64,000 nucleotides of DNA. Origin: Saururus chinensis. Taxonomy: Eukaryota > Streptophyta > Magnoliopsida > Piperales > Saururaceae. A program made the position numbers and the translations under genes. A model generated the notes under the pieces. The model had not been told where the DNA came from and did not search any database. It worked only from the letters and a program-made list of their open reading frames with translations. Location: assembly GCA_035235625.1 (NCBI GenBank), contig CP141148.1, positions 35,527,057 through 35,591,056 of the forward strand. The letters run 5' to 3'. The stretch's first letter is position 1, and each line of letters begins with the position of its first letter. Shown piece by piece: positions 14,578 through 61,040 of this stretch.

Positions 14578-16905
14578 GAAATAGTTGTACTTCTTTAATA
14601 TTTTTTTCACATAATGTGACTGACTCAACATTATACCTTCAAGAGACCTTTATCTTAATTTCCAACACAACATTACAACTCTAAGATCTTTCATATCAAA
14701 ATGCTTATTTAGAAACCTTTTGTCTTGCATGATTTTACCATTATCATGGTCAAAAATAAGATTGTCATCAACATATAGACATAAAATAATATAAATATTG
14801 CCAACATTTTTTTAATAAAGATATTTATTAGATATACATGCAACAAAACCATAAAATAATAGAGTTGAATTTTCATGCTATTGTATAGGAGCTTGTTTTA
14901 GATCATATAAAGATCTAATTAACTTGTACATTTTCTTCTCTTGACCAAGCACTACAAATCCCTTTGACTGATCCATATATACTTCTTCTTCTAATTCACT
15001 ATGTAAGCATGTTGTCTTGATATCCATTTGGTGAATCTCAAGGTTGTAATGAACACCCAGTGCTAAAAGTATGTTAATAGTAGTTATTCTAATCATAAGA
15101 GAATATATGTTAAAGTAATCTAGACTTTCTTTTCAACTATACCCTTTGGCGACTAGCATTGCTTTGTACTTTTCAAAGGATATATCCGAATTCAATTTCT
15201 TTTTGAATATCCACTTGTACTCAATGGGTTTGCACCCAAATGGTAGATCAGTTAAGATCCATGCCTCATGTGCAAGTATGAAGTCCATCTCACATTGCTA
15301 TAAGTCATAGGGTCATCTCCAAGCAAGGTGTAAAAGTCATCCCCAAAGGTCTTCTCTATCCTTAGTCTTTTACTTATCCTAAGTTCACAAACTTCATAAT
15401 TTTCTATCCTAGGACTAGTTGATAATGTTTTTTGGTTATGCACAATCACTTCACATTTTTTCTTAAGAGGGAAGATGTGCTTAAAAAATATTGCATCATC
15501 AGATTCCTTTATGGTATTAGGTGCATAATTTGAGTGATTAGACCTTAATACTAAGAATCTATATACATTACTATTGTGTGCATTACCGATGAATATTTTA
15601 TCATAAGTCTTAGGTCCTAATTTATTTACCTATATATTGAGAATTTTAACCTTGGCAAGGCATCCCCACACTTTAAGAGATTAGACTTTGTTTTAGTTTG
15701 ACCTTTGTATGAAACTCTATTCAGAATAAGGAGAGAAAATTGCTTCTCTCCCATATGTTTTTGAGTAACTATAAAGATGATAATGTAGAGTTTATCATAT
15801 TTAAAAATGTTTTATTTTTCCTTTCAGCCATGCCATTAGATTATGGAGATGTGATTTTATGAATTTCGCAAAACTTGATAAACTCATGTGAACAATATTC
15901 TCCACCACATCTTAACCTTTTGATTTTCAAATTAGTTTGGTTCTGAACCTTATTCTTGAAAATTTTAAACTTTTCGAAATCATCGTCTTTTGATTTAAGT
16001 AAAAATACACAGTAATATTTAGAATAATCATAAATAAATATAATGAAGTATTTCAAACCTCCACAAGTTATTACTCCATTCATTTCACAAATATCATTAT
16101 GAACAAGCTTAAGAATAGAAGAAGCATGATAGTTAAATTTATAAGGTTTTCTAGGCATTTTAGATTGAACTCATATTTCACACTTAGAACAAATCTCAAC
16201 ATCATATTTAGCAATCAAATCAAGACTCATAATTTTCTTTAAAATGTTAACATTCACATGTCCAAGTCTTATATGCTACACATCACAAGCATCAATATTG
16301 AAAACAAATGAACTATTATCATTAAAAGAGATGTCATTATAACTAACAACATTCAACTTAAACAAACCATTGCTAAGATAACACTTTCCTACATACACTC
16401 CAAATTTAGAAATTATAACTTTATTTAACTCGCACTAATTTAAAACCCTATTGACTAAGAAGTGCTACATTGACTAAGTTCTTCCTAACAATTGGCACAT
16501 GCTGCACCTTAAGGAGAGTCAAAGTGTTTCCTGATGTGAATCTCACATCCACCTTTCCTTCTCCAACTACTCTTGTTGTAGAGCCATTCCTCATTATTAC
16601 TGCTCTCTCTTTTACCTCCTAATACAAAAAAAAAGAAGATAGATTAGAACAAATGTGGACACTAGCTCTTGTGTCTACCCACCAATCAATAGCTGGACTA
16701 GCCAAATTAAAAACTAGGTCAATGGATTCAAACAAGTTATTGGGTTTAGTTGAGTTGTTCCTTGTGATTGCCACAATGACTTGAGAGTTTTGACCTTCAT
16801 TGTTAATTCCCTTCCTTTGGAAGTGGTCTTGCAAAGTGTATGAGTTGACCACACACAAAACAAGCTTTATTTTTCTTGGATTTTTTTATCTTCCCTTTAG
16901 GCTTG
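14578..16905 (-). mobile_element. Ty1/copia retroelement fossil, truncated
   Basis: On the minus strand, pieces of a copia polyprotein occur in the expected order: a gag CCHC knuckle with protease-like sequence at 16.6-16.9 kb, an integrase piece at 15.84-16.16 kb, and reverse transcriptase with the QMDIKT and LYDLKQAP motifs at 14.88-15.10 kb. The copy is broken at many places and no LTR was identified at either end. Its 5' side abuts the 3' border of a germin-like exon 1, so it was inserted into, or joined to, a second germin-like gene. Boundaries are approximate; it looks old. Confidence 0.8.
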
Positions 16906-16912
16906 GTCATGT

Positions 16913-17033
16913 TGGAGGAGTTGCGGTCAGCAACACAGAATTCCTGAAGTGGACTTGGATCAGATGCAAAGGCAAGTGAAGTAGCCAATGAGAGAAGAGC
17001 AAACACAACAAGAGTCAGAGAGGAAGTGGCCAT
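16913..17033 (-). pseudogene. Exon 1 of a second germin-like gene, remainder lost
   Basis: On the minus strand an ATG at 17033 opens a signal peptide and mature start (MATSSLTLVVFALLSLATSL, then [18 protein letters not shown]) that closely matches exon 1 of the intact germin-like gene at 44915-45035. Homology stops after exactly 121 nt, the length of the intact gene's exon 1. Beyond that border lies a copia fossil, and no exon 2 with the metal-binding cupin boxes is present. The homology continues upstream through the promoter to about 17340. This is therefore a duplicated 5' module whose downstream part was replaced or displaced by the retroelement. An open frame runs past the exon border into element sequence, but nothing shows it is expressed. 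Confidence 0.85.
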
Positions 17034-17345
17034 CTTCTTATTTCTTAGGACTGTAACTATAAGAAAGTTGTGGAGTATTTTTGGATTGAAGAACATATTA
17101 GGGATGAGGAGCTATTTATAGTTTGCAGAGACAATTCCTACCTACTCATTCGATAAAATAACCATGAGAATTGATTAAGTAGATGTTTTACTGACTCAGT
17201 TCTTCAAATTAATGACTACCAACTGAAGCCAGACATGATTTCCTCTTTTTTTTTACCCTCATTGCAAATAATAAATGCAGTCCATGCAAGCGCTTTTCTT
17301 CCCATCATCCCATGCTTGGTTGCTTCTTAGCTCTTCCAATTTTTT
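17034..17345 (-). promoter_or_regulatory. Duplicated germin-like promoter
   Basis: This stretch aligns with the promoter of the intact germin-like gene (about 45036-45375). It has the TATA region CTATAAATAGCTCC (minus strand, near 17110-17124), a TGAGTCAG-related element (here ACTGACTCAGT near 17190-17200) and the shared block ATCCCATGCTTGGTTGCTTC/CCCATGTCTGATAGCTTC. Homology ends where the CACTA-type terminus begins at 17356. Confidence 0.7.
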
Positions 17346-28408: not shown

Positions 28409-28770
28409 GTTGAGTTGACTTAAATATTATATTGACCCTTTTCCAATAGCTCGAGCTTTGGGGAACTTTGTTATCTTAACACGGTCTTAAAGCTTGGGTT
28501 CATATCCCTGCCGGGAGCAACTTTCTTCCTATTTGTGTTTTGGGGCACATTTCCCGAGATCTTATTATATTCTCCTCTTTCCTCTTGATATTACTGTCGT
28601 GTCCCCACATATGGACCCTATTAGAAACCCAAAAGTCATAAGTAAATAAAAAGTTATATTTTATATTAATTAAAATAAAAAATTTAAATTAACTTGGTCA
28701 GTTATAAAGGGGTGTGAGACAGTGTGAAGTCATTTATTGGTGTTATTTTAATAGGAGGGGTTCCATGAAG

Positions 28771-28921
<151 letters not shown>

Positions 28922-29113
28922 TAGTCTCTTTACTTGTTATTTTTAAGATTTCTCATCCATTCTTGACAAGAAGAGTAAGGAAGACTTAATATTATTCATA
29001 TATATTTGGTAGATTTTCTCTTATATATTTATGCCAAGTGAGCAAGGTATGCTTCTTGTCTTTAATTTTATGTTATTTGCCTTATGCTTTATCCCTAAAT
29101 AATAATCCTATAA

Positions 29114-29253
<140 letters not shown>

Positions 29254-29792
29254 GTTATGTGTCCACATGCTAAGCTTTGGTGGGTGCTTGCATATGCCGG
29301 GGGAGTGTTAACTTGAGTTAAATATTATAATGAGCCTTTCTCAATAGCTTGAGCTTTTGGGAAACTTGGTTATATTAACACGTCTTAATTTCAATAAAGG
29401 GAATTCGTTTAAGACCTTGTAAAGATGAGATGAACAAGAGATATAAATGCACTTCCGATTCACAATGCTTGAAAATCTGAGATCTTGAAGATGTACATTG
29501 TTTTTTTTTGTTGAAGTTTTACTTTGTTAAAGAATCTTTCATTCCTGTCATTGTTAAAATAAAATATGAGATCTTCAATAGAAAATGCAATCTAAATTTC
29601 TACATGCTGTTGGTAATGGATGGGGTCAAGGGGAATTGAAAAGAAGCCACAAAAAATAGTGGTTTATCCCTATTTGGACATGTTGAACCCTTTCATCGCT
29701 TCATCGTAATCTCACATTCAAATCAATGGTTGAGATGAGCACCACCTTCTCTTGCACTAGCCTCTCTATCTAGCATGCATGACAAGTAGAGA

Positions 29793-44265: not shown

Positions 44266-45035
44266 CTAGTTGTTGTCCACCCAAAATTGAGACTGGAGAT
44301 AATCCACCACTTTCTTGTCCACTTGGAATGCTCTAGCTAAGACTTCATCCGAGATTGGTGGTTTCGATCCAAAAACAGCTTTGGCAATGGTGATCACACC
44401 TGGGTTCTGACTACTTAGAGCAGCTATAGCAACTGCGTTGGTGTGGCCTTTGTTGAATTGGAAATGGATTAGCCCCTCTGGGAAGACAAACACATCTCCC
44501 TTGTTAAGGACCTTGCTTATGAGGCGATTATCAGGGTTGGATGTCACAAAGCCAACGTAGAGTGTTCCTTCTAGGACAGTCAGAATCTCGGTGGCCCTTG
44601 GGTGAGTGTGGGGAGGGTTCTGGCCATATGGGGCATAGTCTATCCGGACCATAGAGATGCCCAGAGTGTTGAGCCCAGCTATTTGGTTCACATTCACTGT
44701 TGTCACGTTTGATCCAACTGCGTTATCAGTATTTCCGGGCTTATTAAGCCCCGAGAAGAAGAAGTCCTCTGGTGCAGCCTGCATTGGGTCCTTGCAAACA
44801 AAGCCATTAACACGAACTGAAAAAGAAAAAACCATATACCAAGATGAGAAAAAACAGTAGAAGTAAAAAAGTAAGTTATGTTGCAAAGATGAAGACACGA
44901 GTGCGTAAACATACTGGGGGAGTTGCGGTCAGCAACACAGAAGTCCTGAAGTGGACTTGGATCAGAGGCAGAGGCAAGTGAAGCAGCCAAGGAGAGGAGA
45001 GCAAGCACAAGAAGAATTGGAGAGTAAGTGGCCAT
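44266..45035 (-). CDS. Germin-like protein, two exons, intact
   Basis: Exon 1 is 44915-45035 and exon 2 is 44266-44816. The intron 44817-44914 has a GTATGT donor and a TTTTTTCTTTTTCAG acceptor. Splicing gives 223 residues, close to the usual germin-like length. Residues 1-23 form a signal peptide ([20 protein letters not shown]), so the product is secreted to the apoplast or wall. The N-terminal Cys pair lies in DFCVADRNS and VNGFVCKDP. Germin box 1 is [11 protein letters not shown], with two His and one Glu metal ligands, and box 2 is [16 protein letters not shown], with the third His, so all four metal-binding residues are present. GSNVTT holds an N-glycosylation site. Germin-like proteins are cupins; some have superoxide dismutase or other activities, but the activity here is unknown. 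A broken copy of exon 1 and the promoter lies at 16.9-17.3 kb. Confidence 0.95.
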
Positions 45036-45117
45036 CTTCGTTTCTGCTTAGGCTCTCTGATCAGGAGGAAGTTGTGGAGTATGTTTTGGGTTGAAAAAGA
45101 AACTTGGGATGAAGGGC

Positions 45118-48460: not shown

Positions 48461-49031
48461 CAACTTATAAAGCTGATGTGTGGTTCACCCTTCTTGAGCA
48501 GCCATTGATAAGCTCATTTATTTCTTACTGGGTCGAAACATTGGGAGGCCAGGCTGCTAGAAGACATTGTGAGCCTGATCTTCTTGTTTAGTTTCAAGGA
48601 CCATGCCAAGGAAATGTCTCCAGTCCACACAATGACAAGAAAACAGCTCTACAATCACGTCCGAGCTTTCCTTACAAATATGTGGATGCAACTATCGGCA
48701 TATTACAGTATTTGAAGTTTGAAGCAACAGACTACCAGATGTAGGGCACGCTACATGGATCCCATTTCTATGGCTTCTCAAAATAAACCCCATTTCTTCA
48801 TTTCTCAAGCAATCCCCCTATTAAATGTGGGTGCAAAATCCCTGACATGGATCCAATCTTGTAAGTTTCCATTCCACTCAACGGAAGCAAAGCCAAGAAA
48901 TGGCCAAATCTCCCTCGGACTTACCAACAGAAAAGTAAAATACCTGATGTGCTTAAACTCCTTCGAATCTCCACATCACATCCACATTTTCTCAAATGGG
49001 CATCAACTCAACTCCAATCCACTCAGTACCC

Positions 49032-49038
49032 TATAAAG
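49032..49038 (+). promoter_or_regulatory. TATA box of the nonapeptide-repeat gene
   Basis: CCCTATAAAGACACTG places TATAAAG 71 bp upstream of the ATG at 49109, followed by a C/A-rich leader. This fits a plant core promoter with a leader of about 40 nt. Confidence 0.75.
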
Positions 49039-49108
49039 ACACTGCCTCTGCTCACCATCTCTTCACACAAAAACCAAATACTTTCTGAACACCTCATACG
49101 CTCTCAAC

Positions 49109-49756
49109 ATGGCCGTCTCCTTTACCCTGCCCAAGAGCCTCTCTCTCCTCTCCATCCTCCTCCCTCTTCTCCTCTGCTTCACCTCCATCCATGCCACCTA
49201 CCTGCAAGCCTCCGTCGTCCCTGCTTCGGCCTGTGGCAATCTCAACATCATACCTAGTTTGCATGCATTAGTGCCCTTCTGGAGCCCCTACCAAGCCATT
49301 AGCCCATACTGGGCAGCCAGCCCGCCCAGCCCCTACCATGCCGTTAGCCCATACCCCCACCTTGCCATTAGCCCATGCTACGCACCCAGGCCCTACCATG
49401 TCATTAGTCCATACTACGCACCCAGGCCCTACCATGCCATTAGCCCATACGGTGCATACGGTGTTCCTGCCTTTGCTAGTCCAGCTGTGGGTGCGCAGCT
49501 CTTGAACCAGCTGCAGGCCAACCGGCTGTTCAGCCAGCAGCAAGCCAACCAGTTCTTCAACCAGCAGCAGGCCAACCATCTCTTCCAGCAACAGCAGGCC
49601 AACCAGGCCTTCAACCAGTTGGAGGCTAACCAGCTCTTCAGCCAGCAGCAGAACAACCAGTACTACAATGCAGTTCAGGCCAACCAACTGTTGAACGCTC
49701 TCCAAGCTAATTACCTGATGGCCCCTAGAGCCAGCTGTGCTGCGGCTTATGCTTAA
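49109..49756 (+). CDS. Secreted Pro/Tyr-rich protein with eight exact 9-residue QAN repeats
   Basis: An intronless 215-residue protein. The start context AACATGGCC is a good plant start site. Residues 1 to about 29 are a signal peptide (SLSLLSILLPLLLCF core, likely cut after SIHA). Residues about 55-125 are rich in SPY and RPYHxISPY units. Residues 131-202 are eight back-to-back 9-residue repeats without gaps, consensus LFNQQQANQ (LLNQLQANR, LFSQQQANQ, FFNQQQANH, LFQQQQANQ, AFNQLEANQ, LFSQQQNNQ, YYNAVQANQ, LLNALQANY). The tail is LMAPRASCAAAYA. Three Cys remain after the signal peptide. I know no family with this layout; a wall-associated or anther/seed structural protein is possible but unproven. 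The TATA box, leader and poly(A)-like sites support expression. The long reverse-strand frame is a shadow of the repeats. Confidence 0.85.
   Translation: MAVSFTLPKSLSLLSILLPLLLCFTSIHATYLQASVVPASACGNLNIIPSLHALVPFWSPYQAISPYWAASPPSPYHAVSPYPHLAISPCYAPRPYHVISPYYAPRPYHAISPYGAYGVPAFASPAVGAQLLNQLQANRLFSQQQANQFFNQQQANHLFQQQQANQAFNQLEANQLFSQQQNNQYYNAVQANQLLNALQANYLMAPRASCAAAYA
49499..49714 (+). repeat. Coding minisatellite, 8 x 27 bp
   Basis: Eight 27-bp units encode the 9-residue repeats. They share CAGCAGGCCAACCAG-type cores but differ at many third positions and at the two leading hydrophobic codons, so the array is not a very recent expansion and its reading frame has been kept. Confidence 0.85.
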
Positions 49757-57807: not shown

Positions 57808-58320
57808 TATTAGCGACGCTTATATAAGGTCGCAATAAAATACGTCGCAATAAAATATGTCGCTACAAAGTGGTAATAACGACATATACAAAAACGTCGC
57901 AAAAAAAAACCAATATTAGCGACGCATAATCTTAAGCGTCGATAATGGTAGAATATTAACGACGCACATATACAAACGTCACTAATACTTAATCTTTTAG
58001 CGACGTTTAAGTTCATGCGTCGCTAATAGTTAAGTTATTAGCAACGCTTGCATAAGCGTCACTAAAAGATATATCTATTATTTTTTTAAAAAAAAATTAA
58101 AACTATTAACGACGCATTTTTTGAAACGTCGCTAATAGTTTCAACAATAGCACCGTTTATAAATAAGTGTCGCTAATATTTATCAATTTTAAATAAAAAA
58201 ATTAAAAATTATGAACTATGCGTCGCTACTACCTGGTAGTAGTAGCGACGTATGTAACTATGCGTCGCTAATACCCTTGGTAATAGCGACGCATAGTCAC
58301 ATGTGTCACTAATACCTATT
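57808..58320. repeat. Left subterminal AGCGACG repeats
   Basis: Units such as TTAGCGACGCTTATA, AACGTCGCTAATA and ATGCGTCGCTAATA occur in both orientations about every 40-60 bp, some as short hairpins (for example near 58215-58255). These are presumed binding sites for the CACTA DNA-binding protein. Confidence 0.85.
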
Positions 58321-58340
58321 TTTTAAATAAAAAAATTAAT

Positions 58341-58858
58341 GACAAAGAGAGAGGGGGAGGGAGGGGAGAGAGTGTAGAGGGAGGGAGGAGAGAGAGGGGA
58401 GGGAAGAGAGAGTGAGAGGGGGAGGAGAGAGAGAGGAGATAGGGAGGGGAGAGAGGGGGAGGAGGGGAGATCTTTAGAGTGAGAGAGAAAGAGAGAGGGG
58501 AGGGAGGAGAGAGATAGAGGAGTGGAGAGAGAGGGAGAGAGGAGAGAGAGAGGAAGAGAGAGAGGGAGAGAGGGAGGGAGAGGCAGATGGGGAGAGAGAG
58601 AGAGAAGGAAGGAGAGAGAGGGAGGGGAGAGGGAGGGGGAGGAGAGAGAGGGGGAGGAGAGAGAGGGAGGGGAGAGGGAGGGGAGGGAAGAGAGAGATAA
58701 AGGAGAGGGAAGAGAGAGATAGAGGAGAGGGAGGAGAGGGAGAGAGGAGGGAGGAGAGAGAGAGAGGGGGAAGAGAGATAGAGAGGAGAGGGAAGAGAGA
58801 GAGAGAGGGAAGAGTGGAGAGAGAGGGGATAGGGGGGGGAAGAGAGGGAGGGTGAGAT
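58341..58858. repeat. Polypurine (GA)-rich tract 1
   Basis: About 518 bp almost only of A and G on the plus strand (GAGAGGGGAGGGAGGAGAGA types). Confidence 0.95.
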
Positions 58859-59029
58859 GAATTCTATTTTAATTTTTTTAAAAAATTATTAATTTTTTTT
58901 TATTTTTAAAATAAAAAAATAAATTAAAATAAAATACTAATAGCTACGTATAAAGCTATATATTGCTATTAGTATTTTTATTTAATTATTTTTTTACTTT
59001 TAAAAAATAAAAATTCTAAAAATTTGAAA

Positions 59030-59283
59030 ATAGAGGAGAGAGAGGGGAGAGAGAGGGGAGGGAAAGGGTGGAGAGAGAGAGGGGAGGGAGGGAGAGGGAG
59101 GAGAGGGAGAGAGAGAGAGCGGAGAGGAGGGAAGACAGAGAGAGGGGGAGGGAAGAGAGAGAGAGGATATGTAAGAGAGAGAGGGGGAAGAGAGAGAGAG
59201 GAGAGTGGAGGGAAGAGAGAGAGAGGGGAGAGGGGAGGGAAGAGAGAGGGGAGAGGAGAGGGAAGAGAGAGGGAAGAGAAGAA
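59030..59283. repeat. Polypurine (GA)-rich tract 2
   Basis: About 254 bp of purines, preceded by an AT-rich TTTTTTAAAAAATAAA-type block and an AATAGCTACGTATA spacer. Confidence 0.95.
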
Positions 59284-59500
59284 TTTTAGTTTAATTTTTT
59301 ATTAAATTTTTTTATTTTTAAAATAAAAAAATTAAATAAAAATAAAATACTAATAGCGACATATAAGAGTATACATCGCTAATATGTGCACTAATAGCGA
59401 TGTATATACCTATACGTTGCTATTAGTGTTTTTATTTAATTTTTTTATTTTTTAAAATTAATTTTACAGAATAAAAATTTTTAAAAATTTGAAATTAGAG

Positions 59501-59882
59501 GATAGAGGGGGGAGGGAAGAGAGAGCGAGACGATAGGGAAGAGAGAGGAGAGGGGAGGGAAGAGAGAGTGAGACGATAGGGAAGAGAGAGGAGAGGGGAG
59601 GGAAGAGAGAGGGGGAAGAGAGAGGAGGGGAGAGTGAGGGGAGGGAGAGAGAGAGGGAGTAGAGAGAGGGGGAGAGGGGAGAGAGAGGAGAGAGAGAGAG
59701 AGGAGAGAGAGGGGAAGGAGAGGAGAGAGGAGAGAGAGGGGAAGGAGAGAGAGGGGAGAGAAGGGAGAGAGAGGGGAGAGAAGGGAGAGAGAGGGGAGAG
59801 AAGGGAGAGAGGGGAGAAAGAGGGGAGAGAGGGAGGAGAGAGGGGAGAGAAGGGAGAGAGGGGAGAAAGAGGGGAGAGAGAT
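59501..59882. repeat. Polypurine (GA)-rich tract 3
   Basis: About 382 bp of purines with internal duplications such as GAGAGAAGGGAGAGAGAGGG. The same AT-rich and AGCGACATATA spacers flank it. Confidence 0.95.
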
Positions 59883-60113
59883 AAAATATTATTTATATTT
59901 TTTTATTTGTTATTTATTTTTATAAAATAAAAAAAATAAAAGAGTATTAGCGACATATAGTCGTATACGTCGCTAATACTTAAAGGTATTAGCGACGTAT
60001 ATGCCTATATGTCGCTAATACACTTGAGTATTAGCGATGTATAACTCTATTAGCGACATATATGCCTATACGTCGCTAATACTCTTTTATTTTTTTAAAT
60101 AAAAAATATAAAA

Positions 60114-60812
60114 ATAGAGAGAGTGGGAGAGAAGGAGGAGAGGATAGGGAGGGGAGAGGGAGGAGAGAGAGGGGGAGGAGAGAGAGGTGGAGAGAGAGAG
60201 GGAAAGGGAGGAGAGAAAGAGAGGAAGGAGATAGGGGAGAGGGGGGAGAGAGAGAAGAGAGGGGAGAGGGAGGAGAGAGAGAGGGGAGAGGGGGGAGAGG
60301 GAGAGGAGAGAGAGGAGAGAGAGAGGGGAGGAGAGAGAAGGGAAAGGGAGGAGAGAAAGAGAGGAAGGAGATAGGGGAGAGGGAGGAGAGAGAGAGGAGA
60401 GGGAGGAGAGAGAGAGGGGAGGGAGGAGAGAGAGAGGGAGAGGGGGGAGAGGGAGAGGAGAGGGGGGAGAGGGAGAGGAGAGAGAGGAGAGGGAGAGGGA
60501 GAGGGGGGAGAGGAGGAGGATAGAGAGAGGAGAGAAAGAGGGAGGAGAGAGAGAGGAGAGAAAGAGGGAGGAGAGAGAGAGAGGAGAGAAAGAGGGAGGA
60601 GAGAGAGAGAGGAGAGAAAGAGGGAGGAGAGAGAGAGAGGGGAGAGGGGGGAGAGGGAGGATAAAGAGAGGGGGAGAGGGAGGATAAAGAGAGGGGGGAG
60701 AGGGAGGATAAAGAGAGGGGGGCAGAGAGAGGAGAGAAAGAGGGAGGAGGGAGAGAGGAGAGGGAGGAGAGAGAGAGAGGGGGAGGGAGAGAGGAGAGAG
60801 AGAGGAGGGATT
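60114..60812. repeat. Polypurine (GA)-rich tract 4
   Basis: About 699 bp, the longest tract, with higher-order duplications (blocks of GAGAGGAGAGAAAGAGGGAG). The minus-strand frame of 260 codons is only Ser/Leu/Pro and is not a gene. Confidence 0.95.
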
Positions 60813-61040
60813 TTATTTTTAAAAAATAGTATTTGCGACGATTATAAGTAAGCGTCACAAATATATGCCTTAATTGCGATAGAATAAGTGAAACGTCGTA
60901 AATTAAACGTTATTTGCAACACTTAGTTACAAGTGTCGCAAATACATTACCAATTGCAACGTTATGAGGAAAGCGTCGCAAAATGGCATATTTAGTGACT
61001 CAAACTATGCGTCGCTAAAATTAACACATTTTTTTTTAAT

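Follow-up and report, generated by a model that had tools for sequence, protein, structure and literature searches.

A plant gene family encoding secretory-type proteins with a strict nine-residue Q/N-rich repeat

The window analysed here, a 64,000-nucleotide stretch of plant DNA, contains a repeat gene that is real and belongs to a small plant gene family. Counting the window copy, at least 20 places of its genome carry a member; 11 of these have open frames and nine are broken or partial. Constraint on the protein is strongest in the repeat block, the units are position-specific and about 95 bp of promoter are conserved, indicating that the family is real. A chance ORF is ruled out by the paralogues, by selection and by promoter conservation. 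As a repeat-rich secretory protein the family is ordinary in kind; what makes it unusual is the strictness of its nine-residue Q/N repeat, together with a sorting-like tail that is lost in some copies. It is apparently undescribed and is known here from one genome. What an initial annotation of the gene had observed was confirmed in part, and its interpretation was partly supported.

The reading we tentatively favour is a storage-type protein with helical repeats that enters the secretory pathway and packs with copies of itself, zein-like but arisen independently. It appears the most likely reading on the signal peptide, the low charge and lysine content, the abundance of Q, N and A, the probable helix, the tandem amplification and the sorting-like end. 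Seed expression of the family is a guess.

Layout of the gene and its product

In window coordinates the gene has the following parts:

48949 to 49043, plus strand: conserved proximal promoter (CCAAT at 49014-49018, TATAAA at 49032-49037), from a 10-member upstream alignment
49109 to 49756, plus strand: ORF of 215 codons, the window copy
49109 to 49195, plus strand: signal-peptide-like start of 29 residues with the cleavage-type site IHA|TY, read by eye from the sequence
49280 to 49450, plus strand: SPY / RPYHxISPY-rich middle, a subclade expansion present in the window copy, L009 and L010 and shorter in the seven other aligned members
49499 to 49714, plus strand: eight uninterrupted nine-residue Q/N-rich units, amino acids 131-202, from lag-9 identity
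49715 to 49756, plus strand: Ala/Cys tail and stop codon TAA, shorter than in most paralogues, from the alignment

The ORF was found where the initial annotation had placed it, and with it the signal-peptide-like N-terminus, the TATA box and the good start context (ATG context CAACATGGCC) that the annotation had described. The hydrophobic core of the N-terminus is kept across the 10-member alignment. The SPY / RPYHxISPY-rich middle is likewise present, but its limitation to three of the ten members indicates that it is not the conserved part of the protein.

Mature family proteins are small (about 140-190 residues), nearly charge-free, usually lysine-free and rich in Q, N and A. After residue 29, a cut that is only approximate for L020-L022, nine of ten members have 0% lysine, and the ten contain 13-17% Q, 8-11% N and 13-19% A. 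Whole precursors carry 2-5 cysteines each (10 members); outside the signal peptide, only two are nearly invariant.

Family copies and their germin-like neighbours

The genome searched, of which the window is part, comprises 516 Mb in 11 contigs, and its germin-like and thaumatin-like genes mark it as that of a plant. Searching it in six frames with the window protein returned 32 matches, which fall into 20 places, one of them the window copy itself. With the divergent member L022 as query, 28 matches were obtained and a further fragment came to light, at C7:32.92 Mb. These are minimum counts, since scoring covered the best candidates. The frame is open from signal peptide through repeats in the window copy, L009, L010, L012, L013, L015, L016, L017, L020, L021 and L022, and L011, L014, L018, L019 and L023-L027 are broken or partial. 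L012 and L013 encode an identical protein and lie 100 kb apart. Their surroundings (L004 and L005, at C9:35.728 and 35.829 Mb) are 99.6% identical over 3.57 kb, the result of either a recent duplication or an assembly duplicate.

Twelve of the 20 family places fall within 345 kb at C9:35.576-35.922 Mb, among germin-like genes. One of these neighbours lies in the window:

44266 to 45047, minus strand: germin-like (cupin) gene, Pfam Cupin_1 at E 9.3e-57

By eye, its exon 2 lies in 44266-44898 and its exon 1 upstream in another frame. Relatives of this gene are interleaved with the repeat family over C9:35.57-35.92 Mb: all 12 repeat-family places in the cluster lie no more than 22 kb from a germin-like match and seven of them no more than 3 kb, although several of these arose by duplication from each other. 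At C9:19.1-19.6 Mb, and again at C4:39.29-39.32 Mb, remnants of the two families are found close together. By contrast, the intact copies on C10, on C11 and at C9:26.9 Mb have no nearby germin-like match among the matches listed, indicating that the pairing is not obligatory.

Repeat units keep their identity by position

In the window copy, 34 of 63 residues of the repeat block are identical at lag 9. Shuffled sequences averaged 11.1 with a maximum of 24, and none of 20,000 shuffles reached the observed score; the period is thus far beyond chance. The initial annotation had described eight exact repeats. Their length is indeed exact, without gaps, but their sequence is not: the window copy never shows the consensus LFNQQQANQ itself, any two of its units have 3 to 8 of nine residues in common and the sole residue invariant over all eight units is Asn at position 8.

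Units were compared across the seven members with eight units, one L020 unit being shortened by one residue. Same-position units were 0.81 identical across paralogues, against 0.61 for different-position units and 0.61 within genes. With one member per subclade (the window copy, L016 and L020) the corresponding values were 0.76, 0.62 and 0.63. The fifth unit, for example, reads [AF]FNQ[LI]EANQ in the window copy, L010, L016 and L020. Each position in the array has thus retained its own unit sequence, which marks the array as old rather than recently homogenised. The comparison of repeat number, suggested in the initial annotation and made here within the one genome, gave seven or eight units per member with the nine-residue spacing kept (alignment read by eye); the last units are irregular in some copies.

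Selection is strongest on the repeat block

Nei-Gojobori counts were made on 45 pairs of 10 distinct members, leaving out L013 and the broken copies. Pooled over these non-independent pairs, pN/pS was lowest in the repeat block, at 0.28, and came to 0.50 for the middle, 0.52 for the tail and 0.59 for the signal peptide. Repeat-block dN/dS was below 1 in all 45 pairs, with a highest value of 0.66. Nine-residue spacing is kept across whole-CDS synonymous distances of up to 0.84 from the window copy (to L020) and 1.1 within the family. The distance to L020 predicts that orthologues occur in other plants. The proposal that selection acts on the period was thus supported by the spacing retained in same-genome relatives and by the lowest pN/pS lying in the repeat block.

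These values also bear on the possibility that, in an otherwise functional family, the window copy is a duplicate in decay that serves no role; this is compatible with the other readings but in our view unlikely. Its TAA comes earlier than in its sisters, and nine of the 20 family places are broken or partial. The rest of the gene is intact, however, its promoter aligns with those of its sisters, and against the two closest of these its repeat dN/dS is 0.14 and 0.08 (0.37 and 0.28 overall).

Among the youngest copies (L015, L016 and L017) whole-protein dN/dS was 1.16-1.37 at a dS of about 0.03, reflecting few changes or relaxed selection. Such values also speak for a role in defence, the protein being encoded in a rapidly evolving tandem cluster shared with germin-like genes, a reading to which tandem amplification, copy turnover and the germin-like neighbours lend some weight. 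It is nonetheless improbable. Older pairs are under purifying selection, most of all in the repeats; beyond the signal peptide just two cysteines are nearly invariant, and searches of Pfam and the PDB gave no known defence fold; and the C10, C11 and C9:26.9-Mb copies stand apart from the germin-like matches listed.

Comparison with known protein families

No Pfam family reached its cut-off for the window protein and none was convincing over the 10 members. The weak Pfam matches, to TFIIA (best E 0.3, three of ten members), DUF5454 (E 0.02, one of ten) and five others, were rejected as composition-like. Among PDB sequences the window protein matched nothing, and the family profile gave three matches at E 1.4-2.6. 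Pattern matches in GTDB (148) and IMG/VR (204) were in no case borne out by tblastn. A literature search with the repeat motifs found no related protein, its sole match being an unrelated vaccine construct, and searches by topic found no described family with such a layout among the matches listed. The initial annotation had recognised no described family with this layout, and had named membership in a known repeat-rich family as a finding that would count against it; across Pfam, PDB, GTDB, IMG/VR and the literature motif searches its statement held and no such membership was found.

The closest known systems are similar in layout or composition. Zeins are nearly lysine-free and tandem-clustered, as is this family, and the alpha-zeins (PF01559, maize seed prolamins) share its order of signal peptide, less repetitive N-terminal segment, Q-rich repeats and short C-terminal segment. 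Homology to them was not detected: none of the 10 members matched the Zein profile PF01559 at E <= 1, and the Zein model gave no match in the whole genome in a search run without a positive control. The prolamin superfamily is defined by an eight-cysteine fold, and this skeleton is absent from the 10 members with their 2-5 cysteines per precursor. One account of alpha-zeins describes a signal peptide, an N-terminal turn, repeats of about 20 residues and a C-terminal turn, with only two cysteines, both in the N-terminal region; the degenerate Q-rich repeats number 6-9, according to how they are defined (PMC11078433). The present family differs in its unit of nine rather than about 20 residues, in having Asn besides Gln, in its consensus and in its Tyr/Pro-rich middle.

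Extensins and other hydroxyproline-rich cell-wall proteins are secreted and carry Pro/Tyr/Ser-rich repeats, extensins being defined by Ser-Pro3-5 blocks. They resemble the subclade of the window copy, which is secreted-type with Pro/Tyr/Ser-rich middle repeats. This likeness bears on a second reading, nearly as likely as the storage one although we would not call it probable: an extracellular structural protein of the cell wall, pollen wall, cuticle or mucilage, whose Tyr/Pro-rich middles would become cross-linked or bear O-glycans and whose Q/N repeats would associate. The signal peptide, the many SP/AP dipeptides of the Tyr-/Pro-rich middle and the cluster shared with genes for germin-like proteins, which are usually apoplastic, are consistent with it. 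Against it, no extensin-type Ser-Pro3-5 block was seen on reading the 10 member sequences, and the SPY-rich middle is confined to three of the ten, so that conservation lies elsewhere than in this Pro-rich region. The family also differs from extensins in its near lack of lysine.

A predicted helix over the repeats

AlphaFold2 was run on the mature window protein as a single sequence without alignment. It predicted one 79-residue alpha-helix over mature residues 96-174, thus spanning the repeats (mature 102-173). Block pLDDT ranged from 81 to 90 across mature residues 101-170 and from 42 to 64 in the rest of the protein, with a mean of 62.8 and a pTM of 0.27. Single-sequence predictions readily give helices for Q/A-rich sequences. 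Structure prediction of the repeat, which the initial annotation had proposed, thus yielded one continuous helix over the units in a single-sequence model of low pTM.

Nine residues make 2.5 helical turns, so the Leu/Phe pairs of successive units would face opposite sides of a straight helix. A clean amphipathic alpha-helix was rejected, because an exact 9-period gives zero net moment at 100 degrees; harmonic moments at 40, 80, 120 and 160 degrees were none of them unusual against permutations. The opposite-side geometry predicted by this model suits lateral helix packing but does not prove it. Lateral packing of helices is a feature of published alpha-zein models (PMC11078433).

In the storage-type reading, the signal peptide would direct a small Q/N/A-rich protein into the secretory pathway, where the 72-residue repeat block would form a long alpha-helix. 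Its Leu/Phe pairs and Gln/Asn side chains may then pack laterally with other copies into dense bodies, within the endomembrane system or the storage vacuole, in the manner proposed for alpha-zeins. Zein-type repeat-rich secretory proteins are known; a strict short period under measurable selection is unusual, and the family would lend itself to testing how the repeat period determines assembly.

Alpha/beta coiled coils, too, can have a period of nine residues (PMC4786415). We scored 65 regular units, kept by pattern, in the nonad register a-b-c-b1-b2-b3-e-f-g with rules from that source (PMC4786415). Several preferences agreed: b1 and b2 were hydrophobic in 65/65, b3 was D/N/T/S in 59/65 and g was D/E/Q in 65/65. 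Others failed, with a small residue at b2 in 0/65, Lys/Arg at e in 1/65 and a large aliphatic residue at a in 0/65. The register was picked with the units already known; of 7560 letter permutations, 216 (2.9%) did equally well. Tcar0761, with 14 MATKDDIAN repeats, resembles the family in its gap-free nine-residue repeats, hydrophobic pair, N-cap residue and Q/E in register; compared with its nonads, the plant repeats have Phe rather than a small residue at b2, Gln rather than Lys at e, and Ala at a, and Tcar0761 is prokaryotic. A trimeric alpha/beta coiled coil, with L-F-N forming beta-layers and Q-x-Q-A-N-Q helical turns, would explain the period of exactly nine and the partial fit. The failed positions, the post hoc register and the one continuous helix of the monomer model make it very improbable.

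The C-terminal tail

The Ala/Cys tail noted in the initial annotation is present in the window copy but is not the usual end of the family. Eight of the 10 distinct members run on to end in RAVIV, RAAIVY, RAIFV or GAILV, and the window copy and L015 stop early, both ending in AYA. The continuation in the closest sisters is nine residues, and the window copy has TAA at the site where L009 and L010 have TAT. L015 stops at TAA after GCTTATGCT, and its downstream sequence is unlike that of the window copy. Judging from these sequences, L015 possibly lost its tail independently.

Vacuolar sorting receptors prefer hydrophobic residues at -1 and -2 and no Pro at -1 or -3, and phaseolin AFVY is a known C-terminal vacuolar sorting case (PMC12796998). 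The eight members with the longer tail agree with these preferences. Their short hydrophobic ends, which begin with Arg or Gly, resemble the determinants of phaseolin (AFVY), cruciferin (RVAAA) and vicilin-like proteins (SDRFV). Such determinants are signals and not a family, the window copy stops before its tail, and a sorting role here is putative. Tail pN/pS indicates constraint no greater than in the middle, the short end AAAYA is fairly hydrophobic as well, and it is not uncommon for a protein to end by chance in a pair of hydrophobic residues.

For the storage-type reading, the hydrophobic end could act by analogy as a C-terminal vacuolar sorting signal leading to the storage vacuole; the window copy, stopping short of it, would be sorted differently or be a declining duplicate. 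An extracellular structural protein would fit the window copy and L015, which lack this end, but not the eight of ten members that keep it. The family would also lend itself to testing how losing a few C-terminal residues may send a protein elsewhere.

Promoter conservation and motifs

The roughly 95 bp of upstream sequence through the TATA box had a mean pairwise identity of 0.76 among the 10 members, compared with 0.48 for alignment columns further upstream, which are probably in part not homologous. Sixteen motifs were tested in the 400 bp upstream of the 10 genes against 200 shuffles. The endosperm elements among them, the prolamin box, GCN4 and AACA motif, occurred in none of the 10 promoters (400 bp each), whereas endosperm expression and deposition in protein bodies are characteristic of alpha-zeins. 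The seed RY motif was present in three of the 10, not including the window copy (7 seen, 3.2 expected, 11/200 shuffles with as many). ACGT cores, which are bZIP-type elements, numbered 13 against 3.2 expected (0/200 shuffles with as many) and occurred in seven of the 10 genes, again not in the window copy.

The pollen-type motif AGAAA was seen 31 times against 16.1 expected (0/200 shuffles with as many). This excess is consistent with an extracellular structural protein, although 22 of the 31 sites lie in four copies of the C9 cluster and the second pollen-type motif, GTGA, was not in excess over the 10 promoters (30 seen, 36.8 expected). Nor was the W-box defence motif (2 seen, 4.6 expected), arguing further against a defence role. 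As the upstream sequences are related and 16 motifs were tested, motif excesses are weak evidence, and those of ACGT and AGAAA would point different ways as to tissue.

Other features of the window and genome

Fragments of a reverse transcriptase and gag, which we take to be Copia-like, were seen by eye at 14878-17111 on the minus strand. An isolated germin-like first exon lies beside them (16803-17111, minus strand), which looks as though the element inserted into a germin-like copy. At 28708-29324 and 58316-60909, long low-complexity mechanical ORFs point to extended runs of TA-type dinucleotides and to a 2.5-kb stretch of purine/pyrimidine bias. Elsewhere, the genome gave 54 thaumatin-family matches, among which the three clustered osmotin-type proteins compared, L038, L040 and L041, are identical at 158-161 of 195 residues to PDB 1z3q, a banana protein.
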